NCBI GenBank assembly: GCA_963575645.1
Contig: OY754467.1
Location: 20,295,001-20,359,000, forward strand
DNA from: Xanthostigma xanthostigma
Taxonomy: Eukaryota; Arthropoda; Insecta; Raphidioptera; Raphidiidae
DNA: 64,000 nucleotides
Direction of reading: 5' to 3'
Shown here one piece after another: positions 1,891 through 62,896 of this stretch. The notes under the pieces are model-generated. The model was given only the letters and a program-made list of their open reading frames with translations. It did no database searches and was not told where the DNA came from. Each line of letters opens with the position of its first letter. Within the stretch, counting starts at the first letter, position 1. The position numbers and the translations under genes were made by a program.

Positions 1891-2611
1891 TACACTAGCA
1901 GTCCCGCCCGGTTTCACCCGGTGGAAAAGGAACGAATGGGGAAGGGAGGGACATGAGTACGCATATTCATTTTATTTTATCGAGATGAATGCTGTGTCCA
2001 AATTTCGTAATGATCAGAGTTACCGTTCAAAAGTTTTTGTTGTTAAAAAGCAGTATTTATACTTTTTTATAAGTAATAAATTTCTTTTAAAACAATAATT
2101 ACTGTAATTAATAAAATATAATAAATATATAATTGAAAACACTGTAGGAAAATTATTTTTATATAGGTACCTATAGTTGTAACAGTTTTCAAATGAGATA
2201 TTAATTAGATTTATTTAATTTTAATTAGTCGTAATAAAAAAAATAAAAAAATATTCGCCGACGTGGGACTTGAACCCACGTCCCTGGCATTAAGAGCCTC
2301 ATGCTCTACCGACTGAGCTAGCCGGGCTTGTGAATGTGAGGCGCTATAATAATTGCAATATTTAGTTAGGACATTTCACCTGATAATATTTGTCGGACGG
2401 ACAAATTTTGAGATACATCTTGCAACATTTTTCATTGATTCTCCGCTCCAATTGGTCGTAGCGTGATATTATATAGCCTATAGCCTTCCTCTATAAATGG
2501 TCTGTCCAACAATTTTTTTTTTTCAATTCGAACCAGTAGTTTCTGAAATTAGCGCGTTCAACTAACCAAACAAACAAACAAACTCTTCAGCTTTGTATAT
2601 TAGTATAGATT
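1891..2611. mobile_element. RepA repeat, long copy with internal tRNA-Lys-like sequence
   Basis: The element opens with ACTAGCAGTCCCGCCCGG and ends with TATTAGTATAGAT. It shares blocks with copies at 10815, 24465, 51235 and 54996, including a GAATGGGGAAGGGAGGGACA-like block, GTAGCGTGATATTATATAG, an (AAAC)n stretch and the terminal motif. Related ACTAG...TTAGTATAGAT repeats are widespread in insects, but I cannot place this one in a named class. A tRNA-like sequence lies in its middle on the opposite strand. Confidence 0.65.
2256..2327 (-). tRNA. tRNA-Lys(CUU)-like sequence inside RepA, probably a pseudogene
   Basis: On the minus strand the D arm is perfect (TAGCTCAGTCGGTAGAGC, which also matches the Pol III A box). 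The anticodon loop reads CTCTTAA, giving anticodon CTT for lysine. The T arm is GTGGGTTCAAGTCCCAC, a near-consensus B box. The 5' acceptor GCCCGGC is canonical, but its 3' partner and the anticodon stem carry mismatches. A T-run follows directly, as expected of a Pol III terminator. It may be a functional-looking relic carried by the repeat. Confidence 0.7.
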
Positions 2612-3357
2612 ATTTTAACTTGGGATTTTTGCATTCAATTTTTGGATTATTATAAAATTAATTTTAAACTAGAAAATGCAGAAATTCAAGGCTCCACATG
2701 TCTTTCAATTTTGTTCGAATCAATGTATAGTTCCTCAAAAGTGAATAAATATGTATTCAGTATACGACTGAATAGTTGCCCAATATATCTATTCGATAGA
2801 ACTCTAATAATTCACAAAGATATTCTGATGGCTTAGTTTGATATGTTGATATTTCCACATAAATTCATCTTTAATAAAAATCGAAAGCCCTGCTTCGCAA
2901 ATGATTTATTTTATCATACCGTAATGTATGCACCGATGATTGTTCTTCAACAAATATTACACCTGTGCCTGTGCATGTCATAATATATTCATAATATTAT
3001 GCACAGTATTCTAATATTACAACCGTATATACTGGCAAGTTGTTCCAAGGAGGAATAAAAAAAATCAGCACTGCTAGTGAAAGTAGATATCGGTGTTGCA
3101 GGTAAATATACGGTAAACTGTGAACATATGTCAAATATAATGATTAGCTTAAAATTGTGTTAATGTTTACGCGCCGCTACGTTAATGTTTCTTAAAATTT
3201 CCAGTAAAAAAACTACCGAGGAGTAGTGATTGGCTGGCTGTGCTTATCTTTTAAATGAATATAAAAACTTTCTTTTAGGTTATTTCTCCCCTTCAGCTTT
3301 CCATTAGTTGAAAAGTATAAAACAGTAGAAAAGTAATTTGTGTTTTATTATCAAGCT
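2612..3357. other. AT-rich intergenic or intronic sequence
   Basis: I see no gene, RNA or clear repeat structure here apart from short AT-rich stretches such as local TAATATT repetition near 2980-3030. Confidence 0.4.
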
Positions 3358-3358
3358 G

Positions 3359-3722
3359 CAATTTTAGGGTTCCGTATCCGAAGCGTGCCTAATGAGACCC
3401 TATGACTAAGCCTCCGGTGTCCGTCTGTCCCTCTGTCTGTCAGCGGGCTGTATCTCATGAACCGTAATAGGTAAAGAGTTGAAATTTTCACAGAGTGTGT
3501 ATTTCTGTTTCTGCTATAACAACAAATAACAAAAATCAAGATGGAGAATTTCAAAATGGCCACCACTCAAATTAGAAATTAAAATCTTCAATTAAGCTGA
3601 TATTGGGCATGCGTGTTCAGTTCTATTAAAATTACAGGAGAATGGAAAAAACCAAGACACAAATTTCAAATGTGCGGAATCCTACGTGTGCAGTCCGACT
3701 CGCACTCGACCGGTTTTTTCTA
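3359..3722 (+). mobile_element. GGGTTCCGTAC-family element, near full length
   Basis: It starts at TTTTAGGGTTCCGTATCCG, contains a (CTGT)n-rich stretch and TCATGAACCGTAATAGGTA, and ends with CAGTCCGACTCGCACTCGAC followed by CCGGTTTTTT. This order of blocks is the hallmark of a non-autonomous repeat I know from many Lepidoptera and some other insects. Partial copies occur at 4988, 8541, 9868 and 10037. Confidence 0.75.
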
Positions 3723-4008
3723 AGATTCAGAGTTAATGCTTAATTAATTTTTAATTTTTTGGGGTAATTTAAAACTAAATTTGACAATTTACTTCAGTGA
3801 GTGTTTGATGAAAAATAGTAATTATACAATATATCAATTATTTTCTGTTAGATGTACAACAATTTTTGTGAATGAAAAAATATTTGCATGTTGATAATAA
3901 ATACAAACAATATGCGAAAGTTAGTATTATAGAGACTAATTCAGAACTAAAGACGGGAAAAAAATTCACAAATCAGATGGCTTATTAGTCCCGTCACTTT
4001 AGAGTTTC

Positions 4009-4708
4009 ACCTCGGAATAAATCGGAAAAAGCTGAATATTTGCATAAACCTTTATTTTGACATTCTTAATGTTGTCTCAAAAGTTTCATAAGGTTACGTG
4101 TGAGCGTCTTTAGATATTCAAGGTCAAAGGTTGCAAAAATCAGTTTTTTTGAAATATCTCGCTTCCTTTGCCTCAAATCGTATTTGCATTTATTATAAAA
4201 GTTATAGAGTATAAAATTCTCTACCAATTTAGTCTTAACCAATTTTTTACACGTTTAACCGTTTATAAGATAGCCATACATGCCATAGCGCAATGACAAT
4301 CGCGAATCCCAGTTCATATAAATATAAATGATTTAATTATAATTAAAATATAATGTATTAAATAGTCAATTAACTAGAATTTAACGAATAATTAAGTTGA
4401 AAACCGTACTATGGACTGGGATTTTTGATTGACCTTGGCATTTATGGCTGAGCGCTCCACACTCTTCGCGCTCTATCTCAAAAACGGTTAAAATTTTTTG
4501 AGACGAAATGTGTGGACAATTTTATACTCTACAACTTTTATAATAAATGCTAATATGATTTGAGGCAAAGGAAGCGAGATATTTCCGAAAAAACAGATTT
4601 TCGCGACCTTTGACCTTGAATATATGAGACTTTTGAGATAACATTTAGAATGCCAAAATAATAGTTTATACAAACATTCAACTTATTTAGTTTTATTTCG
4701 AGGTTGCC
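4009..4708. mobile_element. Foldback element with about 200-bp arms
   Basis: Bases 4009-4225 match the reverse complement of about 4508-4708. Both contain ATATCTCGCTTCCTTTGCC or its complement, a CAAGGTCAAAGGTYGCRAAAA block, and the terminal CCTCGGAATAAA-like stretch. A smaller inverted pair (GAATCCCAGTTCAT against ATGGACTGGGATT) sits near 4313 and 4410 in the centre. One arm of the same family recurs alone at 21398-21590. Confidence 0.75.
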
Positions 4709-5488
4709 CCCTCTTTTCAGCTTATTTGACTGTACCGTATGTAAAAGCACCATTCTAAAATATAAGAGGAAAAAAATGAAAAAGTTTTGTTGAAAAAAAT
4801 ACCCGGCACTGGCGATTTAAATTTTATAATAGATTAACTAAATACAAGTCTTCATCACTGATTATGTAACTGTTATAAAATTTGGTTAAAATACATAATT
4901 TTATAATCAGTCATTACCGATTGGTCTGTCGTGATAGTCATAGTACCTACAATACGGCATACTAACGAATACTGTAAATGAAGACGTGTTTTTAGGGTTC
5001 CGTACCCGAAGGGTGCTCAAACGGAACCCTATTACTAAGCCTCCGCTGTCCGTCTGTCTGTCCGTCTGTCTGTCTGTCAGCGGGCTGTATCTCAAGAACC
5101 GTAATAGGTAGAGAGTTGAAATTTTCACAGAGTATGTATTTCTATTGCCGCTAGAACAACAAATAATTAAAAACCCCCCAAAACTCCCAAAAGAGGAGCA
5201 AACTAAGTTTTTTGCTTATAATTCGCTCAATTTAAATCAGATCGTTTCGAGACCTGTCTTAAACGAAAGAGGAGAAAATTTTACATAGATTTTGTATAAC
5301 AGAATTCGTCGAAACACTTTTTTTATACAGCTTTATATAGAAATATAATGTATAAATTCAATTTTGTCTAATCCATAGCATACACGGGGATCGTCTGTCT
5401 TCGTTTGTTGCATAGTGTACTATGGGAATTTAAAAATTGCGTATGTTTTGTCTTAAAAAAAAAGATTGCATTTGTTCAAAAATGAATT

Positions 5489-5517
5489 GCACATACCGCT
5501 AAACTAGCGGTATGTGC
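5489..5517. repeat. Perfect 13-bp-stem hairpin
   Basis: GCACATACCGCTA is followed by AAC and then by its exact complement TAGCGGTATGTGC. The same hairpin recurs at 6978-7006 and, with a diverged left stem, at about 6209-6232. It marks the edge of the insertion in FB1. Confidence 0.85.
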
Positions 5518-5737
5518 TTTATTATCGCTTTGTGCGTCAGAGCTGACTTTCGTTCATATAAGAAGTTATATTATTTAAGTTAATTTCACACGAAATCCAT
5601 TCAAATTGAAGCTTTTTGAAAAGAGGAGATTCTAATCTATAAAATAGAACCATTTTCAAATCAATTTGAGTTCATAAATACTATTAAAATTGTAATTGAA
5701 AATCACAAACAGCAGTTGTCGGTTGGTCTGTACGTAT

Positions 5738-5757
5738 GTACGTACGTACGTACGTCA
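5738..5757. repeat. (TACG)n microsatellite, short allele
   Basis: About four uninterrupted TACG units lie in the left arm of the inserted palindrome. The mirrored position in the other arm (6718-6768) holds a much longer run, so the two arms have diverged by slippage. Confidence 0.8.
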
Positions 5758-6392
5758 CGACTCTACAGATCGCAATTTTGGTCGGATTGCCTTGGGTTAT
5801 ATTTTATTCACTTTGTTTACTATCAGACCAGAACCCTATTTAAATTCACTAAAATGTGTTCAGTAGTTTAATTTTTATAAACAGTTTTATTTTTTATTAT
5901 TTTTGACAGCTAATAGTTTAAAATAGTTGGCAAAACCAAAAGTGCACATCCCGCAAGTTTTCCACTGTACATTATATTATTATAATGAAAAAAATTGAGA
6001 AAATAGATTAAAACAAATAAAAAAAAAATAAAAATATACGAGAAACATTAGTAAAATAAGAAATTTTTTTTAGCAATTATGCACGGGTTTTGCTTTCAAA
6101 AATCCCGATTTTTTGAGTTTCTTGTCCTAGTTTATTGACTTTCTAGTTTATCGAAGAACGCATTTTATAGACACAATATCCCAAAACACTATTTTTCAAG
6201 AATATCCCACCGCTACACTAGCGGTATGTGCAATAGATTAAAAAAAACAATTAAAAAATTAAAATGAAAAAAATAAAATGAAAAAAAAATAATAATAATA
6301 AAAAAAATATATGAGAAATATATTATATATAATATATAAATATTAAGTGGAATTAAGTGGAATAAAATGGAATATAAAAAAAAAAATTCTTA

Positions 6393-6466
6393 TGTCAGCG
6401 GGAATCGAACCCGGCACCTTGGGATTACAGGACTTACGCTTTAACCGTTCGGCCACACCGATGCCG
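6393..6466 (-). tRNA. tRNA-like sequence, anticodon possibly GTA, likely pseudogene
   Basis: On the minus strand a D-arm-like GTGGCCGAACGGTTAAAGC precedes a loop CTGTAAT, giving a possible GTA anticodon. The T arm contains a consensus B box GGTTCGATTCC. The anticodon stem does not pair well and the 3' acceptor is poor, so function is doubtful. A long T-run follows. A related copy on the opposite strand lies at 7103. Confidence 0.5.
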
Positions 6467-6717
6467 TACAACGCCTTTGTTATTATGGTATAGAAGTGTA
6501 GCAGTTATTTTACGTATCTTAATTGAGTATATTTATTATGTTTTTTGTTTTTTTATTTTAATTAGCTGTCAAAAATAATAAAAAAAAAACTGTTTATAAA
6601 AATTAAACTACTGAACACATTTTAGTGAATTTAAATAGGGTTCTGGTCTGATAGTAAACAAAGTGAATAAAATATAACCCAAGGGGATCCGACCAAAATT
6701 GCGATCTGTAGAGTCGT

Positions 6718-6768
6718 GACGTACGTACATACGTACGTACGTACGTACGTACGTACGTACATACGTAC
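6718..6768. repeat. (TACG)n microsatellite, long allele
   Basis: Roughly twelve TACG units with two TACA interruptions occupy the right arm of the inserted palindrome, opposite the short run at 5738. Confidence 0.85.
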
Positions 6769-7102
6769 AGACCAACCGACAACTGCTGTTTGTGATTTTC
6801 AATTACAATTTTAATAGTATTTATGAACTCGAATTGATTTAAAAATGGTTCTGTTTTATAGATCAGAATCTCCTCTTTTTAAAAAGTTTCATTTTGAATG
6901 GATTTCGTGTGAAATTAACTTAGATATAACTTCTTATCTGAACGAAAGTCAGCTCTGATGCACAAAGCGATAATAAAGCACATACCGCTAGTTTAGCGGT
7001 ATGTGCAAAAATATAATAATTGCTGTGTAAACTGTAAATATAGTGTAATCCATAAAACAAGTGCTACACTTGTATACCGTGATAACACCACTACAGGTAT
7101 TA

Positions 7103-7174
7103 GGCAGCCGTGGCGTAATGGTTATGCCGTTGGATCCCCAAGGGCAAGGTCCTGGGTTCGATTCCTTACGATAT
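7103..7174 (+). tRNA. tRNA-like sequence of uncertain identity
   Basis: The sequence begins GGCAGCCGTGGCGTAATGG, with a D-arm-like fold, and has a perfect B box GGTTCGATTCC. The anticodon region around GGATCCCCAAGGG cannot be folded with confidence. The downstream T-run and the next AT-rich block resemble those after the minus-strand copy at 6393, so the two form one inverted pair. Confidence 0.45.
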
Positions 7175-7520
7175 CATTGATTTTTTCTTTTTTTTTTATT
7201 TTTATTTTGTTTTATTTTATTCCACTTGATATTAATTATATATTATATTATGTATAGTTCTTAATTTTTTTTATTTTTGCAAACTTAAAAAAAATATTTT
7301 TTCAATTTTTAATTATTTATTTCTTTAAATTTTTAAATCTTTTTAAATTTATTAAAAATATTTTTTAATTGTTATTTTTTTATCATACAGTGGAAAACTT
7401 GCGGGATGTGCACTTTTGGTTTTGCCAACTATTTCAAATATTAGTCAGTCTTTTGACATTAGTATTTTGTGAAATGCAACGCCTTCTGAGTTAACGATTT
7501 GAATAACTAATTAATTAATT

Positions 7521-7694
7521 CAATAAATCAAATTATCGACCAATTTTTCAGACAATATATTAACAAACAATATAAAATTAATACATTAACGTTAATGTAT
7601 TAATTTTATATTGTTTGTTAATATATTGTCTGAAAAATTGGTCGATAATTTTATTTATTGAAGAGTTCTAATCAGACGTTAATCAAAGATTTTA
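7521..7694. mobile_element. Palindromic MITE inserted in FB1 left arm
   Basis: Bases 7521-7660 form a near-perfect palindrome centred on ATTAACGTTAAT, with CCAATTTTTCAGAC and its complement in the arms. The following AATCAGACGTTAATCAA extends the element on one side. AATTAATTAATT flanks both sides, and the right FB1 arm shows the empty site, which supports a simple insertion with target duplication. Relatives occur at 19288 and 43130. Confidence 0.8.
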
Positions 7695-7839
7695 ATTAAT
7701 TAATTATTAGAACATATTGCTTTGACAGATGCAAACGTCATTTTTGATATTTTTTACCATTCCAACACCATGCATGAACAGAATGAAACCAAATTTTGGG
7801 AGGGTTTTTAATATGCAAATATGAAGAGGCCTATTGTTT

Positions 7840-8330
7840 TTGAGAGACGTCGGCGCAAGCGCAAAAGAAATATATATTATATTGTTGTTTTTATAAGATA
7901 ATAGTATACTTTTCATAATATTATTTTGTTTTACAGTTTTGTAAAATAAATTTTTGAAAAAAATCAGCGCATGCGTAGAAGAAATATATACTATAAGGCT
8001 GTTTTTTATATAATAACGGCATACTTTTCATAACGGTTTATTATTCTATCTGTGTTTACAAAAGTTTGGAATTTTTTTGGGAAAAATTGGCGCATGCGCA
8101 AAAGAAATATATGCAATACCGTTGTTTTATTTAATGATAGTAGGTATATATTTCATAATGGTTTAATAGAAAGTTTTGTAAAAAGTTTTAGGGGGAAAGG
8201 CGGCGCATGCGCAGAAGAGATATGTGCTATAACATTGTTTTTATATAATAATGGTATATTTTTCATAATGGTTTAATATTCTAAAGTTTTGTATTTTTTT
8301 TTTGGGGAAATCGGCGCTTGCGTAACAGAG
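7840..8330 (+). repeat. GCGCATGCGC tandem array, left arm of FB1
   Basis: Five diverged units carry the core at 7853 (GCGCAAGCGC), 7977, 8090, 8203 and 8314, with spacing of 124, 113, 113 and 111 bases. Each core is followed by an AAAAGARATATATGC-like stretch and TATAATAATGG-like sequence. The mirrored array is at 8835-9330. Confidence 0.85.
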
Positions 8331-8540
8331 ATATTTGCACATAACGTTGTTATTTGATATGATGGTATATTTATCAAAACTTTATATTTTTTTATTCTAC
8401 AAGAAATTTTTGTAAAAAAAAGTGTTATAATATAAAAACGCCGGGGTGTATTATATAAAATTTCACGCCTTGAAATTCTTGAACTACTTGCATACTCCCA
8501 CTGGGTACATATTGTTATAGCGCCTCTCTTGTTTCTTTTA

Positions 8541-8615
8541 AAAAAAACCGGTCAAGTGTGAGTCGGACTCGCACACGAAGGGTTCCGTACACTATGTACT
8601 TTTTAAATACTTTTT
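8541..8615. repeat. FB1 loop with a GGGTTCCGTAC-family 3' end
   Basis: The loop between the palindrome arms is the reverse complement of the 3' end of the GGGTTCCGTAC element: CCGGTCAAGTGTGAGTCGG, then GGACTCGCACACGAAGGG. The same end, in the other orientation, lies just outside FB1 at 10037-10105. Confidence 0.75.
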
Positions 8616-8834
8616 TAAAAGAAACAAGAGAGGCGCTATAACAATATGTAACAATATATGTGGGAGTATGCAAGTAGTTCAAGAATTTCAAGGCGTGAAA
8701 TTTTATATAATACACCCCGGCGTTTTTATATTATAAACACTTTTTTTTACAAAAATTTCTTGTAGAATAAAATAATATAAAGTTTTGATAAATATACCAT
8801 CATATCAAATAACAACGTTATGGCAAATATCTCT

Positions 8835-9330
8835 GTTGCGCATGCGCCGATTTCCCCAAAAAAAAAATACAAAACTTTAGAATATTAAACCATTATGAAA
8901 AATATACCATTATTATATAAAAACAATGTTATAGCACATATCTCTTCTGCGCATGCGCCGCCTTTCCCCCTAAAACTTTTTACAAAACTTTCTTTTAAAC
9001 CACTATGAAATATATACCTACTATCATTAAATAAAACAACGTTATTGCATATATTACTTTTGCGCATGCGCCAATTTTTCCCAAAAAAATTCCAAACTTT
9101 TGTAAACACAGATAGAATAATAAACCGTTATGAAAAGTATGCCGTTATTATATAAAAAACAGCCTTATAGTATATATTTCTTCTACGCATGCGCTGATTT
9201 TTTTCAAACATTTTTTTTACAAAACTCCTGTAAAACAAAATAATATTATGAAAAGTATACTATTATCTTATAAAAACAACAATATAATATATATTTCTTT
9301 TGCGCTTGCGCCGACGTCTCTCAAAAACAA
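8835..9330 (-). repeat. GCGCATGCGC tandem array, right arm of FB1
   Basis: This is the mirror image of the array at 7840-8330. Cores TTGCGCATGCGCCG, TGCGCATGCGCC and TGCGCATGCGCC occur near 8838, 8949 and 9061, with weaker cores near 9187 and 9302. Some cores differ from the left arm by one base, for example TTGCGCATGC here against GCGCTTGCGT there. Confidence 0.85.
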
Positions 9331-10036
9331 TAGGCCTCTTCATATTTGCATATTAAAAATCCTCCCAAAATTTGGTTTCATTCTGTTCATCCATGGTGTT
9401 GGAATGGTAAAAAATATCAAAAATGACGTTTGCATCTGTCAAAGCAATATGTTCTAATAATTAATTAATTAGTTATTCAAATCGTTAACTCAGAAGGCGT
9501 TGCATTTAATGTCAAAAGACTGACTAATATTTGAAATGACATTCGTTTTTGAACAAATGCAATCTTTTTTTTTTAAGACAAAACATACGCAATTTTTAAA
9601 TTCCCATGGTACACTATGCAACAAACGAAGACAGACGATCCCCGTGTATGCTATGGATTAGACAAAATTGAATTTATACATTATATTTCTATATAAAGCT
9701 GTATAAAAAAAGTGTTTCGACGAATTCTGTTATACAAAATCTATGTAAAATTTTCTCCTCTTTCGTTTAAGACAGGTCTCGAAACGATCTGATTTAAATT
9801 GAGCGAATTATAAGCAAAAAACTTAGTTTGCTCCTCTTTTGGGAGTTTTGGGTTTTTTTTAATTATTTGTTGTTCTAGCGGCAATAGAAATACATACTCT
9901 GTGAAAATTTCAACTCTCTACCTATTACGGTTCTTGAGATACAGCCCGCTGACAGACAGACAGACGGACAGACGGACAGCGGAGGCTTAGTAATAGGGTT
10001 CCGTTTGAGCACCCTTCGGGTACGGAACCCTAAAAA

Positions 10037-12990: not shown

Positions 12991-14059
12991 CATTGGCACA
13001 GCGCGCGATTTAAGTGGCAATGAACGACTCTGTTCACATTTGCCCGCTATAAAACGTTTTGTCCGTGTGTAAATAATTTATCAGGTGAAATATGTTTGCA
13101 GGTATTACGTACAGAGTATGTGCCCAATCTCAAGTACCTCTACCTGCTGAAACATAATTTAATCCCGCGGTAATATATTATTACAGTTATTCTGCTACAG
13201 GCCGATTTATTATTTTTGAAATGGTTTTTAACAGATTTACGTTGAACTAGGGAATACGTATTGGAACTTTGACCTTAAACATAAGGCATTATCAACCATG
13301 GTAAAAAATAATGCCCCATGCTTCTCGCCACTACATGCAGTCTGATTTTTTGACGTGATAACGTCTTATAAATTGATAAAACACCGGCTGCATGCACGAA
13401 AAAGTGTAACGTTCCTAAATCCTAACGTTCGTAACGCGTAACGCGTAACGTTCCGCCTGACCCTGTGCGTGCTTTTTGCTAATTTCTCGCTCAATTTAAA
13501 TCAGATCGGTTTGAAACCAGTCTTAAACGAAAGAGGAGAACATTTTACATAGATTTTGTATAACAGAATTTGCCTAAACAGTTTTTTTATACAAATTTAT
13601 ATAGAAAAATAGCTGTATAAATGCAATGTTGTCTAATGCATGGCGCGACGCGGTCGGTCGTCTTTGTTTGCCGTACATGGAAATTAGAAGATAACGTATG
13701 TCTTGTCTTAACATGAAACCGGCTGCATTTCTAATGTTTAATTCAATTTTTTGACATTAGTATTTTGTGAAATGCAACGCCTTCTAAGTTAAGTATTGGA
13801 GTAACTAATTATTATTAGAACATAATACTTTGACAGTTGCAAACGTCACTTTTGACATTTCTTATCATTCCGACACCAAGGATAAGCGGATTGAAACCAA
13901 ATTTTGGGAGGTTTAGGTTATGTATTACGGAATACGTTATCACGTAAAACTATCGTCCGTAAACCGACTTTACAGACAACCAATTTTTTTTTGGGATTTT
14001 ACTAGTCGTTAATCGCGTCACCGCACGCATTAACAGACATTTTATTTTCTTTATTTATA

Positions 14060-14781
14060 CAGTAAAGTCTCACTAATTTGGCACTATTCAAAACTAGGGG
14101 GTGCCGGATTATTGTAATGTTCGGATTATTGGATTGTAGTATAGAAAAATTCATAATGTGTAAATAAAATTATAATAATATGTAAATATAAAATATGTTT
14201 AACAAAAAAATTGAACCGACTTCACACTAAAAAGTAAAAAATAATTGCGTATTGAAATGTTTTGGAATCGGTGTCAGCCAAAATGAAATCTATTCCGAGA
14301 ACTACACCGACTCCAAAACATTTCAATACGCAATTATTTTTTACTTTTTAGTGTGAAGTCGGTTCAATTTTTTTGTTAAAAATATTTTATTTTTCTCTTT
14401 TTAGTGTTAATCTAACACTAAAAATCGGTGAACATACATAAAAAACATTATGCGTTTCTTTGAAATTTGAGAGTTTCCCTCGATTTCTCCGGATTCCACC
14501 ATCAGATCCTGACTTGGTTCCGATGGGACCACCTCTGAGGGGCACTCTTTCGAATAAAAAAAAATTTGAAAATCGGTCCATAATTGACGGATAAATCGGT
14601 GAACATACATAAAAAAAAAACAAAAATAAAAAAAAATATATACAGACGAACATAGAATCTCCTCCTTTTTGTTGAAGTCGGTTAAAAAAGAGTAGGGAGG
14701 GGTGAGGGTGGCGTGAGCGAAGAGTGCCGGATTATTGGACGTACCGGACTACTGAAGTGCCGGATTAGTGAGACTCTACTG
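14060..14781. mobile_element. Tigger/pogo-like MITE with TA target duplication
   Basis: The left end CAGTAAAGTCTCACTAATTT and the right end complement CAGTAGAGTCTCACTAATCC form about 26-bp terminal inverted repeats, flanked by TA on both sides (14058-14059 and 14782-14783). CAGTA-type ends, a CCGGAT-rich subterminal part and TA duplication are typical of the pogo/Tigger group. No transposase remains. A palindrome of another family is nested inside. Confidence 0.75.
14201..14377. mobile_element. AACCGACTTC-family palindrome nested in the Tigger-like MITE
   Basis: Bases 14201-14275 match the reverse complement of 14304-14377; both hold GAACCGACTTCACACTAAAA and GCGTATTGAAATGTTTTGGA or their complements. 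Further sequence of the same family (TCCACCATCAGATCCTGACT, then GAAGTCGGTTAAAA near 14674) continues to about 14690. This family is well known from lepidopteran genomes. Confidence 0.7.
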
Positions 14782-14989
14782 TAATATGGTAAACGTCAAT
14801 ATTTTCGAAGTTGGAATTGTCTTGTCGCCCATTTGGCTGTAATTTTTTTTTCATCACCATATTAACTTGATGATGATAATTTTCACATAGTAAACATACA
14901 AACAACCCTTTGTAAAAAAATGTCAACCACTCCCGATTTATAGATATACAATATATTATAATACCTACTCGTATGTACACGAACACAAT

Positions 14990-15364
14990 GCATGCAGAAT
15001 GTCAGTTTTCTGTGTGGGGCTCCAGAAGTCGTTTGACCGCGTACGTACAGAGAGCGCTGGCGGCGGCGACGGCCCACAACGCTTTGTGTCACACGTTGCT
15101 ATGCGCACAGTGGGGCTCTGCCCCTTAAACACCTCCAGGCCATACCTATATATATATATAATACACCTGTCTAACGGTAAGACGGCACCACAGCTACTCT
15201 GCGCATTTTTGCAGAGCGGCAGTGCAGTGGCGCTACAGAACAACAAAAGACTCTCGCTCCAATAGCAGTTGTCACTTTCATGATGACCTTGAATCTTATG
15301 CCCTTGTTTTCACAATTTTTCACTCTGCGGCGCTTTATAGAAAACAACAAAACGCTTCCCACCT
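14990..15364. other. GC-rich block inside FB2, unassigned
   Basis: This stretch is clearly richer in GC than its surroundings (for example GCGCTGGCGGCGGCGACGGC) and contains CGGTAAGACGGCACCACAG and a short (TA)n run. Several frames are open on both strands, which is expected for GC-rich DNA. I recognise no protein, so it may be an unclassified repeat or captured host DNA. Confidence 0.35.
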
Positions 15365-15547
15365 CTACTAGGGTTGGAAAGTAGGTCCTGCTTGTCTCGT
15401 GTTTTTAACAGTATCTATAGAGTCTTCGAACAGGGACTTCCGAACTTTGACGGTTGATAGCGGCCAACTTGTTGAAGCTACATCTGATAAATTGGCTGTC
15501 ATTTATTCAGTTTGTTTTGCCAAATCACAATAGACGGATATAGCGTT

Positions 15548-16238
15548 CAACAACAGCAACGTGTGTTTGCTGAATGGGCTCTGGAGCAGTTGGCAACTGA
15601 CCTTAATTTTCATATAAAAATCATCTTCAGCGATAAGGCCTATTTTTGGATGAATGGATACGTTAACAAACAAAAATTTTGGATTTGAGACGATACCAAT
15701 CCACATAAAATCCAAGAGCGTCCAATGCATCCCGAAAAAGTCATTGTTTGGTATAGATTTTGGGCTGGCAGTGTCATCGGCCCATATTTCTTTGAGAACG
15801 ACGTTGGCCAGGCCATCGCGGTCAATGACGGGCGCTATAGGTCGATGATTACTGACTTCTTTTGGCCTGAATTGGATGTTATGGACACCAACGACATGTG
15901 GTTTCAACAGAACGGCGCTACGTGCCACACAGTTCATGCCACATTGGACATTCTGCACGAGCGATTTGAGTGCATGGTCATCTCACGTAGAGGTGATGTG
16001 AACTGGCCACCGAGATCGTGCGATTTGACCCCCTTAAACTTTTTCTTGTGGGATTTTTTTTAAGTCACAGGTCTATGCGAATAAGCCACAAACCGCAGCG
16101 GCCCTAAAAGCCAACATAACCCATGCCATCGGTCAAATTCAGCCTGATTTATGCACCAGAGTCATGGAAAAATTGGACATTCGCGCCACCCAGAGAAGCC
16201 GCGGCGGACATTTGAAAGATGTTATATTCCACACATAA
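15548..16238 (+). pseudogene. Mariner-type (IS630-Tc1-mariner) transposase, broken and catalytically dead
   Basis: Only the C-terminal two thirds of a DDE transposase remain; the DNA-binding N-terminus is missing. The first catalytic Asp is kept in F-S-D-K-A-Y-F. The second, in QQNGATCHT, is changed to Asn, where relatives have QQDGATCHT. The third, in LTPLNFFLW, is also Asn instead of Asp. There is an in-frame TGA at about 15688 and a one-base frameshift in the T-run at 16053-16061, after which reading resumes in K-S-Q-V-Y. The conserved WPPRSCDLTPL motif and the R-S-R-G-G-H-L end support the assignment. Confidence 0.85.
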
Positions 16239-16337
16239 TGGCATCGATAGGCCTTTCAGACGAATAAAAAATGTCGATGATATGTAACACACACTTAGTT
16301 TTAAAGATAGGAAGCGCTTAATGAAAGACCCTTTATT

Positions 16338-16545
16338 AGGCGCGAATAGCGTAAGCTAAAGCGCCTATATGTACTCGCTTTGTCTGTGAATCTGTGAGTC
16401 ACGCTTTTTGTATCCAGCGTACAGCCCAAACGCCTTAACCGATTTTAAAAAACTTTTTTTGTTCGATTCGTCTCCGGGTAACTTAAATCCTAACGTCGCC
16501 CGATTTTTGAATTTTGGTCCCAGAGGGGAGAAAATTAAGAAAAAA
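16338..16545 (+). repeat. GCGAATAGCGTAAGCTAAAG repeat
   Basis: The block GGCGCGAATAGCGTAAGC followed by GCGCCTATATGTACTCGC begins a repeat that continues with AACGCCTTAACCGATTTT and TTGGTCCCAGAGGGGAG. The reverse complement of its start recurs at 48300-48358. The TTTTGGTCCCAGAAGGGAG block also occurs in FB3. Confidence 0.6.
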
Positions 16546-17589
16546 AATGGTTGTCTGTAAAGTCGGTTTACGGACGATAGTTTTACGTGATAACGTATTC
16601 CGTAATACATAACCTAAACCTCCCAAAATTTGGTTTCAATCCGCTTATCCTTGGTGTCGGAATGATAAGAAATGTCAAAAGTGACGTTTGCAACTTACAA
16701 AGTATTATGTTCTAATAATAATTAGTTATTCCAATACTTAACTTAGAAGGCCTTGCATTTCACAATATACTAATGTCAAAAAATTGAATGCATTTATACA
16801 GCTATTTTTCTATATAAATTTGTATAAAATATTTTTCTATATAAATTTGTATAAAAAAACTGTTTAGGCAAATTCTGTTATACGAAATCTATGTAAAATG
16901 TTCTCCTCTTTCGTTTAAGACTGGTTTCAAACCGATCTGATTTAAATTGAGCGAGAAATTAGCAAAAAGCGTCAGGCGGAACGTTACGCGTTATGCGTTA
17001 TGCGTTACGCGTTACACTTTTTCGTACATGCAGCCGGTGTTTTATCAATTTATAATATTGGTGATTCATCAATATTTATAAGACGTTATCACGTCAAAAA
17101 AGTTTTTTGCTAATTTCTCGCTCAATTTAAATCAGATCGGTTTGAAACCAGTCTTAAACGAAAGAGGAGAACATTTTACATAGATTTCGTATAACCGAAT
17201 TTACCTAAACAGTTTTTTTATACAAATTTATATAGAAAAATAGCTGTATAAATGCAATGTTGTCTAATGCATGGCGTGACGCGGTCGGTCGTCTTTGTTT
17301 GCCGTACATGGAAATTAGAAGACAACGTATGTCTTGTCTTAACATGAAAACGGCTGCATTTCTAATGTTTAATTCAATTTTTTGACATTAGTATTTTGTG
17401 AAATGCAACGCCTTCTAAGTTAACTATTGGAATAACTAATTATTATTAGAACATAATACTTTGACAGTTGCAAACGTCACTTTTGACATTTCTTATCATT
17501 CCGACACCAAGGATGAACGGATTGAAACCAAAGTTTGGGAGGATGTTTGATATGCAAATATGAAGTGGCCTATTGTTTTTGGGGAACAT

Positions 17590-18345
17590 CGGCGCATGCG
17601 TAAAAGAATATATCTCTTATAATATTGTTTTATATAATAATAATATAGTTTTTAAAACGGTTTTTACTCTATCTATTTTTACTAGAAATTTTTGTAAATT
17701 TTTTGGGGAAAATCGGCGCATGCGCAAAAGAGATACATGCCATAGTTGTTTTTTATATAATAATAGTATACTTTTTATAGTGTTTTATTATTCTACTTTA
17801 CAAGAAAGTTTTGTAAAATGTTTTTTAAGGGAAAGTCGGCGCATGCGCAGAAGAGGTATAAGTTATAAAGTTGTTTGTATATAACAATGGTATACTTTTC
17901 ATAACAGTTTATTATTCGATCTATTTTTACAAGAGTTTTGTATAATTTTTGGGAAAAATCGGCGCATGCGCAAAAGAGATACATGCCATAAGTTGTTTTT
18001 TATATAATGATGGTGTACTTTTTATAATGTTTTATTATTTTACTTTATAAGAAAGTTTTGTGTAATGTTTTTTGAGGGAAAGTCGGAGCATGCGCAGAAG
18101 AGGTATAAGTTATAAAGTTGTTTGTGTAAAACAATGGTATACTCTTCATAACAGTTTATTATTCGATCTATTTTTACAAGAGTTTTGTATAATTTTTGGG
18201 AAAAATCGGCGCATGCGCAAAAGAGATACATGCCATAGTTGTTTTTTATATAATAATGGTGTACTTTTTATACTGTTTTATTATTCTATTTTAAAGAAAG
18301 CTTTGTAAAAAATTCTTTAAGCTAAAGTCGGCGCATATATGCTAT
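17590..18345 (+). repeat. 123-bp GCGCATGCGC array with alternating A/B units
   Basis: Cores lie at 17592, 17716, 17839, 17962, 18087, 18209 and 18331, spaced 122-125 bases. After the core, units alternate between AAAAGAGATACATGCCATAG (17716, 17962, 18209) and AGAAGAGGTATAAGTTATAA (17839, 18087), giving a 246-bp higher-order repeat. The core resembles the published NRF-1/EWG binding site YGCGCAYGCGCR, with one end base off. Confidence 0.9.
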
Positions 18346-18656
18346 AAAGTTGTTTTTATATAATAATTGGGTACTTTTCATAACGGTTTATTTTTCTATC
18401 TGTTTTTACAAGAAAGTTTTAAATTTTTTTTTCTAAACTCATAATTTCAGAAATATTTTGTTCCTGAAGATGTTAGTTAGGTAGCTCTTTGTTTAATTTT
18501 TGCTTGACACAATAACATATTACATAGAGAACCGTGAAATTATTAAAATTATATTTTCCTTTCTGTGTTTCATTATTTTCAACTGTTATTTTTTTCTTAG
18601 AATAAGTAAATTAAGTTATACTATATTAAGCTCCAAGTGTCGTTAAATATATATAT

Positions 18657-44754: not shown

Positions 44755-45390
44755 TTACAATGGCTAATAATAATCATTAGGATTAAATTTAAGTATACAG
44801 CATATATTTTCACTGAATTAGAAGGCTTATATGCCTATATGTATGAAAAATTGAAATGTCAGTGTCGGAGCTTGAACCCGAAACAACCAATTTTCGTGTT
44901 GGCTGAGTTACATTACTCTACAATGCCCACGACAGTTATTTTTTATTTTTCTTATATATAGCACAATGCAACGCAGAATCGACTACCCGCGAGAGCTAAT
45001 ATTTTAATAATAACACTACAAGAATGTTGACTTTCTCCATTTGGCTGGACTGGCTTAATGAAACTAATAAACCATGGAGAAATTCAACATTCTTGTAGTG
45101 TTGTTATTAAATAATTAGCTCTCGCAGGTAGTCGATTCTGCGGTGCATTGTACTATATATAAGAGAAATAAAAAATTAACTGTCGTGGGCACTGTAGAGT
45201 AATTAAACTCAGCCAACGCGAAATTGGTTGTTTCGGGCTCAGTGACATTTAAATTTTTCTTATATAATTATAAGCCTTCTAAAATATTATGACGATAATC
45301 GTTTAATATTATGCTTTCACTAATGCAGTGAAAAAATATGCTGTATACTAGAATTTAATTGTAATGTTTATTATTAGCCATTGTGATAAT
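44755..45390. mobile_element. Foldback element with tRNA-like text in both arms
   Basis: Bases 44755-45040 match the reverse complement of 45075-45390. Shared blocks are GTATACAGCATATATTTTCA or complement, GAGCTAATTATTT, AGTCGATTCTGC and ACAACACTACAAGAATG. Each arm holds a segment reading CTGAGTTACATTACTCTACA or its partner with a GGTTCAAGCTCC-like box, which resembles a decayed tRNA but has no clear anticodon. Confidence 0.8.
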
Positions 45391-46716
45391 AATGCAGTAA
45401 ATAAAATCTTTCTCATGGTTTATTAGATTTAAATTTTATCTCCACAAATCTCTACACACACCATAAATTAGACATCAATCACAAAATGGTATTTAATCCC
45501 ATTTTCTGATTGATGTCTAATTTATTATCAACATTTATCAAATTGTTTCCGAGATGTGTCGCGGAATCTGCAAGCGCCGAACTTTCTGTTCGAAACGGAG
45601 ATAGAATTTGATCAATTTTTAACGACTGGTGATGTTCTGATTAATACTATATATTCACATTGCGGCAATAGTCCTTACTTTAACTTTAATTATAATATAT
45701 TGCATTTACTAAACAATGACGAGATTTACCAAATTAATATAAATATAGTTTTGAAAAAAAAAATGAGAATTTCTGAAATTTTATTCTTGATTTACAGTTG
45801 AAAAATTCATTCGATTTCAGATTTTTCTTTGTTCTTAGTGATTCGTTCATAACAAACACCCTATTAAGGATTTGCTAGAGTCTGTTTGCTTGATGACTTT
45901 TTTTTATCAGAACGTTTCTCCTATTTTAACTTTTTTTATAGATTAGAGAAACTGCTTCATACATTTGCACTTTTCTGTACCATTCTGAACAAGATGCAAT
46001 CTTAAATATCTTTTCTTCTCTTCCTCCTCTTTCTTTTTCCACCTCTTCTTTTTTTCTGCATCATTTACTACTCTAGTTATACCGCTAACGCAGCGTTTAG
46101 AAGTTGCTTCGAATCCTAAGAAGTTATTCTTATACTTTTCTCTATTCCTGGTTAGGCACGCCGCAACCTGCCTCACGAGTCACGACCTTCCCTCACGTGG
46201 TACTCGGTCTGCCTACAGGTCGCTGCCCCTGTGGCTTCGCCGCAATGAATTGGCGTTATTTTCGCTACTCCTCCATCCTTGAAACATGACCTCCATTTTT
46301 GGTCGTCCATTTTCCTGACCAATATCTCGGAGAAACTTTTTTTATTTTCAGTGCGTTCTTTCTTCAGTCGTCTAGACTCTAGGAGTTAGACTTACAACAA
46401 ACATCCAACCGTTATTCAATATTGTTTTGTACATATTGTAGATAAAAGTATAGCATACATGAATAACTGTGCTATGTATTTTTACATTACCTACGTAGGC
46501 TTCCTGTGTCCATGCCATGTTAGATTCACTGGTCAATGGACATTACAGTGCATATAGACTATGAGTGGCTGAATAGTCTATAGCCAACGGCCGTTTGATT
46601 TAATGTACAGTTCGCGCCGACCAATGATAATAAACGGACAACAGTTAACTGTTAAAGTGTAATCATTTTAACCGCGAACTAACCTCACCTTACTCATCCA
46701 AACGTGCCAAAAAGGA
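45391..46716. other. Unassigned sequence with one GC-richer patch
   Basis: The stretch 46150-46240 is GC-rich (GCCTACAGGTCGCTGCCCCT) and gives an open frame, but I recognise no protein. The purine-rich minus-strand tract near 46005-46060 produces Lys/Glu-rich open frames by composition alone. Confidence 0.35.
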
Positions 46717-51234: not shown

Positions 51235-51672
51235 ACTAATTTCACACATCAACCCGAGTGTAAAAGAACGAATGGGGAAGGGAGGAACATGAGTACACAC
51301 ATTCATCTTAGTTTACCGAGATGAATGTTGTGTCCAAATTTCATGATGATCGGAGTTACCGTTCATTAAAATAAAAATTTTATTTTTAATTGGGGCTCGA
51401 ACCTACGACCCTGATATAGACAGTCGCTAATATGAGTATATTTAGTTAGTGCATTTTACCTCAATAGAAGCTTATTTTTGAGATACGTTTTGCAACATTT
51501 TTCAATAATGCTCCGCTCCTAATGGCCGTAGCGTGATATTATATAGTCTTCCTCGATAAATGGGATATCCAACAAACATTTTTTTTTTCAATTTGAACCA
51601 GTAGTTTCTGAGATTAGCGCGTTCAAATAAACAAACAAACAAACAAACTCTTCAGCTTTATTAGTATAGATG
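51235..51672. mobile_element. RepA copy with a tRNA T-arm remnant
   Basis: It has GAACGAATGGGGAAGGGAGG, TACCGAGATGAATGTTGTGT, GTAGCGTGATATTATATAG and the AAACAAACAAACAAAC end. At 51391-51410 the text GGGGCTCGAACCTACGACCC is the T arm of the internal tRNA-Lys-like sequence; the rest of the tRNA is lost. Confidence 0.65.
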
Positions 51673-54995: not shown

Positions 54996-55795
54996 TACTA
55001 GCGGTCCCGTCCGGTTTCACCCGGGTGCAAAAGAACAAATGGGGAAGGGAGGGACATGAGTACGCACATTCATCTTAGTTTACCGAGATGAATGTTGAGT
55101 CCAAATTTTTTGCAGTTTTCGGCAGTTCCCTGCTTTATAACTTAATTTAAACTCAAACCTCCATTTTTCATGAAAATATTTTTTTAAGTAATAATTAATT
55201 ATTTCTTTTAAATCAATAATTACTGTATAATTAATAAAATATAATAAATATTTAATTGAAAAAACTGTAGAAAAATTATTTTTATATATAGGTACTGTAA
55301 TAGTTTTCAAATGAGCTATTATTTAGATTTATTTAATTTTAATTAGTTGTAAATAAAACTAAAATAAATTTAAATGATAGCCTTAGAAAAAAGCAATGTA
55401 GAAAATAAAAAAAAACACATTAAAAACATATTCTTCTAAAGTGGGGCTCGAACCCACGACCCTGAGGCTAAGAGTCGAGCGCTCTACCGACTGAGCTAAC
55501 CGAGATTCGGTACGTGCGCCGCTAATATTGGGATATACTGTTAGAGCATTTCACCTGAATATAAGTATATGGTGAAAAATGTTGACTGACATTCTGCAAC
55601 ATTTTTCATTGATTTACCGCTCCTGTTAGTCGTAACGTGATATTATATAGCCTATAGCCTTCCTAGATAAATGGGCTATCCAACAAAAAAAAATGTTTTT
55701 CAATTCGAACCAGTAGTTCCTGAGATTAGCGCGTTCAAACAAACAAACAATCAAACAAACAAACTCTTCTGCTTTATATATTAGTATAGATATAG
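54996..55795. mobile_element. RepA copy with tRNA-Lys-like sequence, inserted in the LINE
   Basis: ATTA lies on both sides (54992-54995 and 55796-55799), and removing the element restores the LINE frame across the junction. It opens TACTAGCGGTCCCGTCCGG and ends TATTAGTATAGATATAG. This is the clearest view of RepA boundaries in the window. Confidence 0.75.
55434..55505 (-). tRNA. tRNA-Lys(CUU)-like sequence inside RepA, probably a pseudogene
   Basis: Minus strand: D arm TAGCTCAGTCGGTAGAGC and T arm GTGGGTTCGAGCCCCAC are intact, and the anticodon loop CTCTTAG gives CTT. The acceptor (TCTCGGT against TTTAGAA) no longer pairs and the anticodon stem is weak. A T-run follows 14 bases downstream. 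It corresponds to 2256-2327 in the other long RepA copy. Confidence 0.65.
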
Positions 55796-57409: not shown

Positions 57410-57417
57410 AAAAATAA

Positions 57418-58153
57418 GGTAATTATACACTTTCGCGGTCACCTGGTTTTTTGGATCTAGAAAATCGAAAAATCATCCGATTTCGATGAATTTTTTTTTA
57501 AATCTTCGTTTTTATGGCGGATTTATGGAAAAAAATACGAAAATTGAAAAAATCAATATTTCTCACAGTTTCATGACTTTAAATGCAAAAAAAAATTGAC
57601 TTTCTACATATAATCCTTTATAACTGTTTCTGACGTCGTGGAATCAAGTTCGTATATTTTTTTTCGCAATCTACATAAAAAATGAATATTTTTGAAAAAA
57701 AAATTTTCAAAAAAGTTAATTTTTCGGTATTTTACAGCCTAAAATGTATTCTATTTCACATTCTAAATCACATGTACACGAATGTTCCAATTTATGCATT
57801 TTGATAAAAAAAAATTTCAAAACAATTCCGGGGTGAACGATAAACGGGTATGCGAATTGTAATTCCGGGGTGAACGATAAACGGGTATGCGAATTGTAAT
57901 TCCGGGGTGAACGATAAAGGGGTATGCGAATTGTCTCGCAGTGAAACGGGAAGGGGCAAATGTGGAGTTTTTAAAAAAACAATTCCGGGGTGAACGATAA
58001 ACGGGTATGCGAATTGTAATTCCGGGGTGAACTAATTTTTTTCATAAATCCGCCGTAAAATGGAACTTTTTGAGACCGAGATCATTGAAATCCATCTATT
58101 TTTCGATTTTCTAGAGCCAAAAAACCAGGTGACCGTGAAAGTGTATAATTACC
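57418..58153. mobile_element. DNA transposon (non-autonomous) with 8-bp target duplication and 37-bp internal repeats, copy 1
   Basis: The ends GGTAATTATACACTTTCGCG and its complement are inverted, followed by GGTCACCTGGTT. AAAAATAA flanks both sides (57410-57417 and 58154-58161). Inside is an array of 37-bp units opening AATTCCGGGGTGAACGATAA. The 8-bp duplication fits hAT or Merlin; the GG start favours Merlin, but I cannot decide. No transposase is present. Confidence 0.85.
57825..58040. repeat. 37-bp tandem repeats, copy 1
   Basis: Three full units are followed by CTCGCAGTGAAACGGGAAGG and then one full and one partial unit. Unit differences are confined to a few sites, such as AAACGGG against AAGGGG. 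Confidence 0.9.
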
Positions 58154-60731: not shown

Positions 60732-60971
60732 AATTCAAAATTAAGAATTCATACAAAAAATTCGTAGAAAAAGTATTGATTTTTACAGGCAGTTTTTTAT
60801 TAAGAAGTATTAGTATTTAACATGACAAATTGTCTATAATTATGTAACTAGAATTCAAAATTAAGAATTCATACAAAAAATTCGTAGAAAAAGTATTGAT
60901 TTTTACAGGCAGTTTTTTATTAAGAAGTATTAGTATTTAACATGACAAATTGTCTATAATTATGTAACTAG
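60732..60971. repeat. Perfect 120-bp tandem duplication
   Basis: Bases 60732-60851 and 60852-60971 read identically. Each starts AATTCAAAATTAAGAATTC (with one flank base shift) and ends TTATGTAACTAGA. Either it is very recent or it is an assembly artefact. Confidence 0.95.
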
Positions 60972-61565
60972 AAAAACATGTGTGATAGGATGATAATAAA
61001 TAGCAGAGTTAGATGACAGAATTATGAGAATAAGTTGCTGCGACAGTAATTGCAATTAGCAAGGAAACGTCCAACTTGGACATTTTTTAACCTGTCCAAA
61101 TTCCCTGCGATTTCAACATCAATAAGACTGTCGACATGAATATACCAACAAAAAGTATGTTCAAATAATTTAAATTTAATCGAAAAACGAAAGTTGGTGC
61201 AAATTTGAACAGTGTTTTTATGTTCGCATGGTAATTGAAAAACAATTATCGATGACATGCATTATTTTTACATTTATCTACTTCAGACACATTTTCGATT
61301 GTCATAGTATCAAGTGACATTACTTTTTTTCAAAAGAATTTTACATACCGCATGTTCACAGGATTAAAGACTGTACAAAAGTTTGCTGGACAAATAATTC
61401 AATTTTTAAGCATTTTTTGTTGTTCGTTTCTCAAATACAGCTCAACACTATTCGTGATGAAACTTATACAGATTACGGAGAAATATTAATTATATAATAA
61501 ATATAGTTTTAAAAAAAAAATAAAAAACACGATTTATATCGAACTAAAAAATAAAAAAAAACTTT

Positions 61566-62447
61566 GGTAATTATACACTTTCGCGGTCACCTGGTTATTT
61601 GGCTCTAGAAAATCGAAAAATCATCCGATTTCGATGATTTTTTTTTTAAAATCTTCGTTTTTATGGCGGATTTATGCAAAAAAATACGAAAATTGAAAAA
61701 ATCAATATTTCTCACAGTTTCATGACTTTAAATGCAAAAAAAAATTGACTTTCTACATATAATCCTTTATAACTGTTTCTGACGTCGTGGAATCAAGTTC
61801 GTATATTTTTTTTCGCAATCTACATAAAAAAATGAATATTTTGAAAAAAAAAAATTTTCAAAAAAGTTAATTTTTTTTTTTAAAACAATTCCGGGGTGAA
61901 CGATAAACGGGTATGCGAATTGTAATTCCGGGGTGAACGATAAAGGGATATGCGAATTGTAATTCCGGGGTGAACGATAAAGGGATATGCGAATTGTAAT
62001 TCCGCGGTGAACGATAAAGGGGTATGCGAATTGTAATTCCGGGGTGAACGATAAAGGGGTATGCGAATTGTCTCGCAGTAAAACGGGAAGGGGCAAATGT
62101 GGAGTTTTTTAAAAAACAATTCCGGGGTGAACGATAAACGGGTATGTGAATTGTAATTTCGGGGTGAACGATAAAGGGGTATGCGAATTGTAATTCCGGG
62201 GTGAACGATAAAGGGATATGCGAATTGTCTCGCAGTGAAACGGGAAGGGGCAAATGTGGAGTTTTTAAAAAAACAATTCCGGGGTGAACGATAAATGGGT
62301 ATGCGAATTGTAATTCCGGGGTGAACTAATTTTTTTCATAAATCCGCCGTAAAATGGAACTTTTTGAGACCGAGATCATTGAAATCCATCTATTTTTCGA
62401 TTTTCTAGAGCCAAAAAACCAGGTGACCGTGAAAGTGTATAATTACC
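61566..62447. mobile_element. Non-autonomous DNA transposon with 37-bp repeats, copy 2
   Basis: Same ends as copy 1. The flanks AAAACTTT (61558-61565) and ATAACTTT (62448-62455) agree at seven of eight bases, consistent with a target duplication. It is 146 bp longer than copy 1, because it carries more 37-bp units. Confidence 0.85.
61885..62332. repeat. 37-bp tandem repeats, copy 2
   Basis: About five units, then CTCGCAGTAAAACGGGAAGG, about three units, the same linker again, and one and a half units. The linker plus units form a larger repeat of about 170 bp. Proline-rich minus-strand frames here come from the repeat, not from genes. Confidence 0.9.
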
Positions 62448-62630
62448 ATAACTTTTTTAAAAATAAGCTTAAAACAAAATAATGAATAAAAAATACTAGT
62501 ATTATTGTGAAAAAAGCGTGGGGCGCTTTGTTCCACATTTTCGTACATCGAGCGCCCCACGCTTTTTTCACAATAATACTAGTATTTTTAGTCATTATTG
62601 TTTTAAGCTTATTTTAAAAAAAAAATTATT

Positions 62631-62762
62631 TACTTTTTAGTTCGATATAAAGCGTGTTTTTTAGTTTTTTTTAAACTATATTTATTTTTCACTTTTTAGT
62701 TTGATATAAAGCGTGTTTTTTAGTTTTTTTTAAACTATATTTATTTTCCACCTTTTAGTTCG
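62631..62762. repeat. Two-copy 67-bp tandem repeat
   Basis: CTTTTTAGTTCGATATAAAG and GCGTGTTTTTTAGTTTTTTT occur at about 62633 and again at about 62700, with one or two changes. Confidence 0.85.
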
Positions 62763-62807
62763 ATTTATTGTCAAAAATTTGCCGAAAAACAACAAATTTT
62801 TTATTTT

Positions 62808-62896
62808 GGCGTGGACGGGATTAGAACCCACGACCGGTGAATCTGAGAGTTGACGTCAACGAAGACTAGCGCCTTAGACCGCTCGGTCAACAATTG
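62808..62896 (-). pseudogene. tRNA-Leu-like pseudogene with long variable arm
   Basis: The minus strand has GACCGAGCGGTCTAAGGCGC, the D arm of a tRNA-Leu, a long variable region, and GTGGGTTCTAATCCC. The anticodon stem does not fold, so the anticodon cannot be read. A T-run (minus strand TTTTT) follows. It lies immediately after the palindrome that ends at 62770. Confidence 0.6.

Follow-up and report, generated by a model that had tools for sequence, protein, structure and literature searches.

The question raised by this locus is what tRNA-like sequences are doing among the repeats and palindromes of an insect chromosome. The stretch analysed here, called the window, spans 64,000 nucleotides of Xanthostigma xanthostigma (contig OY754467.1, positions 20,295,001 to 20,359,000; G000:C4:20295001-20359000) within a 623-Mb genome of 28 contigs, and 11 listed tRNA-like sites in it were examined. 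An initial annotation had offered three explanations, namely capture of tRNA by mobile elements, elements that target tRNA genes, and use of RNA polymerase III (Pol III) promoters to transcribe hairpins. The first is supported. The listed sites sort into six repeat families, A to F, in each of which the module lies inside the element, and patterns spanning the module border recur hundreds of times in the genome. Borders are sharp in families A to E, and the target-site signatures separate two mechanisms of insertion. The tRNA-like sequences are probably passenger tRNA genes, mostly damaged copies, and the non-coding mobile elements that carry them belong to six or more families.

Detection of the tRNA-like modules

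The exact B box GGTTCRANNCC occurs seven times in the window, at 2266, 6401, 27901, 51393 and 55444 on the minus strand and at 7155 and 32657 on the plus strand, while 100 dinucleotide shuffles gave a mean of 0.26 and a largest count of 2. With one mismatch there were 29 matches against 11.7 by chance, which adds 44868 and 62818, both on the minus strand. A-box patterns of tRNAs matched at 2303, 55481, 6438 and 27933 (minus) and at 32615 (plus), with 0.06 or 0 matches in the shuffles. The Rfam tRNA model (RF00005) scored above its cut-off twice, at 2256-2327 (minus, 38.0 bits) and 32615-32670 (plus, 33.7 bits), and below it at 55434 (minus, 27.4 bits) and 27898-27953 (minus, 22.3 bits). ARAGORN called a single gene in the window, a tRNA-Lys(CTT) at 2255-2327 on the minus strand. 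By the B-box excess, the two Rfam matches and the ARAGORN call, the tRNA-like sequences of the initial annotation are real.

Neither program gave a call in the window at 6393, 7103, 37435, 44870, 45200, 51391 or 62808, and these sites were recognized by their A and B boxes together with family membership. A, C and the older copy of D have a firm tRNA-like signal; the grounds are weaker for the young D module and for E and F. For ten of the 11 sites the family has many copies in the genome, as found by direct search or by alignment to a searched copy. The remaining site, 6393, is assigned to family D because it matches the 7103 copy at 67% and because a D-type end motif occurs at 6221 on the minus strand. 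In all five consensuses from A to E a TTTT run begins 6 to 18 nt after the module, and in families C, F and B a TATATAA-like box starts 21-28 nt upstream of it.

The genome loci fetched for alignment were the best-scoring matches and not a random sample (30 of 40 scored for A and for B, and 6-8 for each of C to F), so they lean toward young and well-kept copies. A naive comparison gave seven copies in the window against 0.37 expected, which does not argue for local enrichment, since the window itself supplied the families and part of the patterns.

Helitron and HINE-like families

Family A is a non-autonomous Helitron, as judged from its ends, its target between A and T, and the absence of a target-site duplication. 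The window copy of 715 bp at 1895-2609 (minus strand, locus L036) starts with TCTATACTAATAT and ends with CTAG, and the tRNA-Lys(CTT)-like module occupies 2255-2327 on the same strand. Both borders are sharp in an alignment of 31 rows, made of 30 loci from one search and the window copy at 55434. When ends were searched at up to two mismatches, both were found in 20 copies from 32 loci, with lengths of 526-936 bp. In these two-ended copies an A precedes the 5' end in 18 of 20 and a T follows CTAG in 19 of 20, and a common word of at least 8 nt was found in the flanks of 1 of 20 copies as compared with 1 of 380 mismatched pairs, which indicates no target-site duplication. The 5' TC and 3' CTRR that characterize Helitron ends are both present. 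The CCCGG/CCGGG stem before the 3' end folds at -5.4 kcal/mol and is no better than shuffled sequence (z -0.23). The distance from the 5' end to the module is about 280 bp, the module has the direction of the element, and TTTT follows 6 nt downstream; the border pattern recurs at 410 places in the genome at up to three mismatches, against none for the reversed-pattern control, and ARAGORN called a Lys gene in 13 of the 30 fetched loci.

A second subfamily of A is represented in the window at 54998-55790 (minus), with both ends found and 73% identity to 1886-2610 over 814 columns; loci L079 and L080 are alike. Its tRNA-Lys-like module at 55434-55505 (minus) retains exact B and A boxes, and it is this module that scores below the Rfam cut-off. 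Another copy at 51252-51670 (minus), recognized by alignment, has an internal deletion that leaves only the 3' part of the tRNA, with the B box at 51393 and the 5' end at 51658, both on the minus strand. Between the subfamilies, identity is 78-82% in the tRNA and 82-86% in the remainder. The presence of the tRNA in both suggests that it predates their split.

Helitrons of the silkworm, in the accessible text of PMC3789558, likewise have 5' TC, 3' CTAG, an A^T target and an amplified piece of host gene. Captures there were found by BLASTX against proteins, whereas the piece captured in A is a tRNA gene, invisible to a protein search. For Arabidopsis, the accessible text of PMC10701932 describes a tRNA-Cys cluster that overlaps annotated Helitrons, which three Helitron predictors did not confirm, and its authors state that, if a Helitron had really captured a tRNA, no earlier case would be known for a non-coding RNA. 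In contrast to that cluster, family A has recognizable ends and a recognizable target and is dispersed in hundreds of copies.

Families C, D and E look like HINEs derived from Helentrons, judging from the structure of their termini. Family C is present twice, on opposite strands and with approximate termini. One copy at 27704-29164 (minus), interrupted at about 28231-28809, has its 5' motif at 29148 and its 3' motif at 27728 and was aligned with six genome loci; its tRNA-Gly-like module at 27891-27963 (minus) has an A-box match and is the second of the modules under the Rfam cut-off. The other copy at 32005-32872 (plus) carries the module at 32609-32682 (plus), which includes the stronger Rfam match of this family. 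Family D appears as a rearranged cluster at 5487-7430 in which at least two HINE-like copies are nested in a copy of the repeat RepA, with end motifs at 5487 and 7416 on the plus strand and at 5926, 6221 and 6996 on the minus strand, the borders being taken from eight genome loci. It holds an older relative at 6393-6465 (minus), a type II, Leu/Ser-like module assigned by its B box, by an A box at 6438-6455 with two mismatches (0 expected) and by alignment, and a young version at 7103-7171 (plus) assigned by its B box and recurrent border pattern. Family E at 62440-63019 (minus), with approximate borders and a 3' hairpin at 62453-62622, contains a type II, Leu-like module at 62808-62896 (minus) whose B box has one mismatch.

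At up to three mismatches the border patterns recur 325 times for C and 662 times for E, and none of the reversed controls for C, D and E gave a match; the count of 1828 for D reflects modules more than junctions because its pattern includes only 6 nt of flank, as compared with 10-17 nt in the other families. The eight D loci fetched, of 40 scored, have 96-99% identity across the query region, with the 3' end placed in 8 of 8 and the 5' end in 7 of 8; for C and E, placement of both ends succeeded in 4 of 6 and 5 of 6 loci. Subterminal inverted repeats, as expected at both ends of HINEs, were found in C (GGAACGAAGTT / AACTTCGTTCC), in D (GCACATACCGC / GCGGGATGTGC, with one mismatch) and in E (ACACGCTTTATAT / ATATAAAGCGTGT), and a short microsatellite and a 3' palindrome are visible in the three consensuses. 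When folding was compared with that of shuffled sequences, the 5' palindrome of D was strong (z -7.6) and neither 3' stem was clearly better than shuffles (z -1.05 in D and 0.78 in C). A flank word of at least 8 nt was shared in 0 of 4 C, 0 of 7 D and 0 of 5 E copies, which indicates no target-site duplication, the ends of C and E being approximate. Two E junctions lie 257 bp apart in the same direction elsewhere in the genome (G000:C3:47165341 and 47165598), a possible tandem HINE.

Family F, at 37320-37915 (plus) with approximate borders, is probably an older HINE-like element and is filed with reserve. It has GAAGTGAATACTTC near its 5' end, an inverted repeat and a long 3' hairpin at 37715-37848, and its tRNA-Gly-like module at 37435-37500 (plus) is preceded by TATATAAA; six genome loci were aligned with the window copy. 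Identity is 80-89% in 40 scored matches, and 754 places are loose candidates. As for known relatives, the HINE and DINE-1 elements in the accessible texts of PMC4067079 and PMC7492417 resemble C, D and E in their subterminal inverted repeats, T-rich target and lack of duplication and, as far as the consensuses show, in a microsatellite and a 3' palindrome. The tRNA-like module sets the three families apart, and the word tRNA occurs 0 times in both papers.

Penelope-like family B and the inverted-repeat context

The element at 44755-45429 (locus L006) belongs to family B, which is non-autonomous, and consists of two head-to-head units with modules near 44870 (minus) and 45170 (plus). The inverted pair covers 44757-45384, the arm at 45200 has lost its B box, and a 9-nt word, TAAATTTTA, is common to the two flanks. 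The B sample comprised 30 loci, of which 29 are distinct (L028 is the same as L029). The unit is about 385 bp long and occurs whole, in tandem or in head-to-head pairs; by eye, most inserts stop at unit position 373-394 or some 40 nt beyond, at 425, with some loci truncated elsewhere. A target-site duplication of 9-15 bp is indicated by a flank repeat of at least 9 nt, which 17 of 30 loci have as compared with 30 of 870 mismatched pairs, the other 13 loci having none that long, and by a word of at least 10 nt at 15 of 30 against 13 of 870. The border pattern recurs at 381 places at up to three mismatches (reversed control 0), and ARAGORN called a gene in 19 of the 30 loci, 18 of them Ser(CGA) and one Ala. 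Among the first 100 of the 381 matches, all nine inverted neighbours less than 600 bp apart are head to head, four tandem steps measure 379-387 bp, and the sole tail-to-tail pair is 2033 bp apart. Head-to-head palindromes are thus a habit of this family.

Partial direct or head-to-head copies with an optional short tail and a short, variable duplication are features of Penelope-like elements, and from these structural features B would work like a Penelope element. The accessible text of PMC3846280 gives as Penelope habits pseudo-long terminal repeats, an inverted head-to-head copy, a 31-bp tail, duplications of 8-10 bp and a TATATATA box. B is similar in its head-to-head and partial tandem copies, its short tail (about 40 nt), its short duplication and its TATATATA box; it differs in its unit of about 385 bp, in which no coding part was seen, and in its tRNA-like module. 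Two other identities were rejected. A hammerhead-bearing retrozyme finds no support, since Rfam detected no hammerhead in the window (E up to 10), in L006, L009, L015 and L028 (E up to 1) or in L009, L015 and L019 (E up to 10). Helenus, with TRIMp3, also carries a tRNA-like sequence in a non-autonomous element, according to the accessible text of PMC10886601; however, it is a long terminal repeat element with duplications of 4-5 bp, and the 9-15 bp of B do not fit the 4-bp duplication of animal Helenus.

The habit of B bears on the earlier claim that nearly all tRNA-like sequences lie in RepA, in palindrome arms or beside a foldback; as far as palindrome arms go, this was not confirmed. Inverted-repeat arms, defined as at least 80 nt long with at least 70% identity and a spacer of up to 5 kb, cover 19.0% of the window and contain 4 of the 11 sites (27891, 32609, 44870 and 45200), or 6 of 11 if the diverged pair 6393/7103 (67%) is counted in. 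In the fetched loci, the locus centre overlapping the tRNA lay in an inverted repeat in 6 of 30 for B and 3 of 30 for A, a small difference, in 1 of 7 loci with a weak tRNA and in 0 of 5 with a real tRNA, D being unscorable. When pieces of at least 45 nt were counted, the B unit was found on both strands in 14 of 30 loci (13 of the 29 distinct). No inverted pair less than 600 bp apart was seen by eye in A, C, D or E among about 100 places listed per family. The link with inverted repeats therefore holds in part for this window and as a habit of B, and it fails as a general property of the modules; the context is partly that habit and otherwise nesting and opposite-strand pairing in a repeat-rich window.

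Several other repeats and frames accompany these elements. A 1.78-kb palindrome at 7693-9471, 95% complementary, is built of 111-123 bp repeats also found at 17576-18431, and these may correspond to the central repeats in HINEs of the RepA type. A 17-bp unit, TGATTACTATTGATTAT, is repeated perfectly about sixteen times at 26722-26994, with 100% matches; separate arrays of one 37-bp unit, AATTCCGGGGTGAACGATAAACGGGTATGCGAATTGT, lie at 57824-57934 and 61887-62326 within a larger repeat (57410-58032 and 61558-62169); and a perfect tandem duplication of a 120-bp unit at 60732-60973 is probably recent. Pfam returned nothing above cut-off for 10 of the 17 listed open reading frames of the window. Overlapping open frames at 15503-16063, also without a Pfam match, look like a broken mariner-type transposase. 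Family A and (GTCY)n elements bear a likeness to those of insects, probably moths or butterflies.

Passengers or working parts

How might the tRNAs have entered? In the passenger interpretation, the unit would consist of a tRNA body and a terminator-like T-run, with an upstream TATA-like box as well in three families. It would have been taken up once or a few times per family, perhaps by template switching or as captured filler in the vicinity of tRNA genes, and then multiplied with the element to hundreds of places. Four or five of the families would be rolling-circle elements (Helitron A, HINEs C, D and E, and probably F) and one, B, a Penelope-like retroelement, all presumably copied by Helitron/Helentron and Penelope enzymes encoded elsewhere. 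The module would have no present use for the element. Inverted repeats would be a side effect, arising in B from head-to-head pieces and in the other pairs from two elements that are oppositely oriented or nested.

An alternative is that the modules are useful, in that a promoter bound by Pol III or TFIIIC would keep the element open, seed single-stranded DNA or an R-loop, or act as a replication stop, so that carriers have won repeatedly. In its stronger form, this proposal has rolling-circle transposons of this lineage repeatedly acquiring complete tRNA genes, oriented with the 5'-3' direction of the element, because they benefit from a Pol III unit: bound TFIIIC or the transcription bubble would hold the element open or halt the rolling-circle copy. 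This form is unlikely, and the proposal as a whole is equally doubtful. If true, tRNA modules would be functional components that recur across Helitrons and HINEs, and a Penelope-like lineage would have arrived at them by convergence. The number of unrelated families in one window that carry a tRNA is at least five, but these are families chosen for holding one. The B box and T-run are often kept, and TATATAA-like boxes occur in C, F and B. Conservation points both ways: outside CpG sites, divergence in A is 0.038 in the tRNA and 0.034 and 0.058 in the flanks, and in B it is 0.022 against 0.036 and 0.023. The tRNA thus differs from one flank in each family and not from the remaining flank (p 0.69 in A and 0.45 in B), so that no consistent extra conservation was found in A, in B or between the subfamilies of A. 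Moreover, the module seems dispensable, since RepA copies at 13366-17608, which share part of the C element, apparently have tandem repeats where C has the tRNA.

Some of these observations, with others, do weigh against the passenger interpretation. The tRNA is less variable than the 3' flank in A (p 0.011) and than the 5' flank in B (p 0.027). The module runs along the 5'-3' direction of the element in all four well-bordered rolling-circle families (A, C, D and E), for which chance is 1 in 8; this shared orientation could stem from a capture bias near tRNA genes or from the elements putting Pol III factors to use. In D and E the modules were identified as tRNA by box matches and by no program: Rfam found no tRNA when run over the D module (L066, L070 and L072) or the E module (in the window and in L081-L083), and the single ARAGORN call in the eight D loci, in L068, falls outside the module. 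Finally, a 10-nt direct repeat, TATATATAAG, brackets the B module; repeats of at least that length arose in 5 of 300 shuffles, B being one of five families tested, and the repeat could point to retroposition of a tRNA transcript in place of capture at the DNA level.

The same repeat around the B tRNA would suit a reading in which the modules are short interspersed elements (SINEs), or began as SINE insertions into other elements, as would the existence of true tRNA-headed SINEs in this genome. The latter family (L074-L078) has its tRNA head from near ACCGAGCGG, with Rfam tRNA scores of 39-45 bits, and lies outside the listed sites of the window. A SINE origin is very improbable, however, since the tRNA is internal in A to F and not a 5' head, TTTT follows within 18 nt in A to E, no SINE body was seen, and A, C, D and E show no module-flanking duplication beyond that of shuffles. 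Transcription of palindromes into hairpin RNA from tRNA promoters, which three module pairs in or beside inverted repeats of the window might recommend, is less credible still: the modules face apart (minus/plus) in all three pairs and in the nine close inverted B pairs among the 100 listed matches, T-runs would end the unit at once in A to E, and the hairpins of E and F lie beyond the T-runs. Least probable of all, and close to excluded, is that the elements target tRNA genes as Dada transposons do, which the tight association of tRNA and element might suggest. Dada, in the accessible text of PMC3706591, is associated with tRNA genes but inserts into them with duplications of 6-7 bp, whereas here the tRNA is inside the element, the flanks are unrelated from copy to copy, and duplications are absent in A, C, D and E and 9-15 bp long in B. 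SINEs, Dada-like targeting and Pol III hairpins, the latter two proposed in the initial annotation, were therefore rejected as readings of the window modules.

No description of tRNA-carrying Helitrons, HINEs or Penelope elements in animals was found in the searchable titles and abstract openings of the literature, from which subscription papers are mostly absent and which do not cover Repbase reports. Counts of gene capture based on proteins, such as those for silkworm Helitrons in the accessible text of PMC3789558, would miss the capture of tRNA. Families with clear ends whose tRNA now sits at hundreds or thousands of sites make captures countable, give exact junctions and render the capture mechanism testable. 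Many false predictions of tRNAs in genomes of this kind could be due to such passengers, and tRNA-like matches near palindromes need not mean Pol III hairpins.

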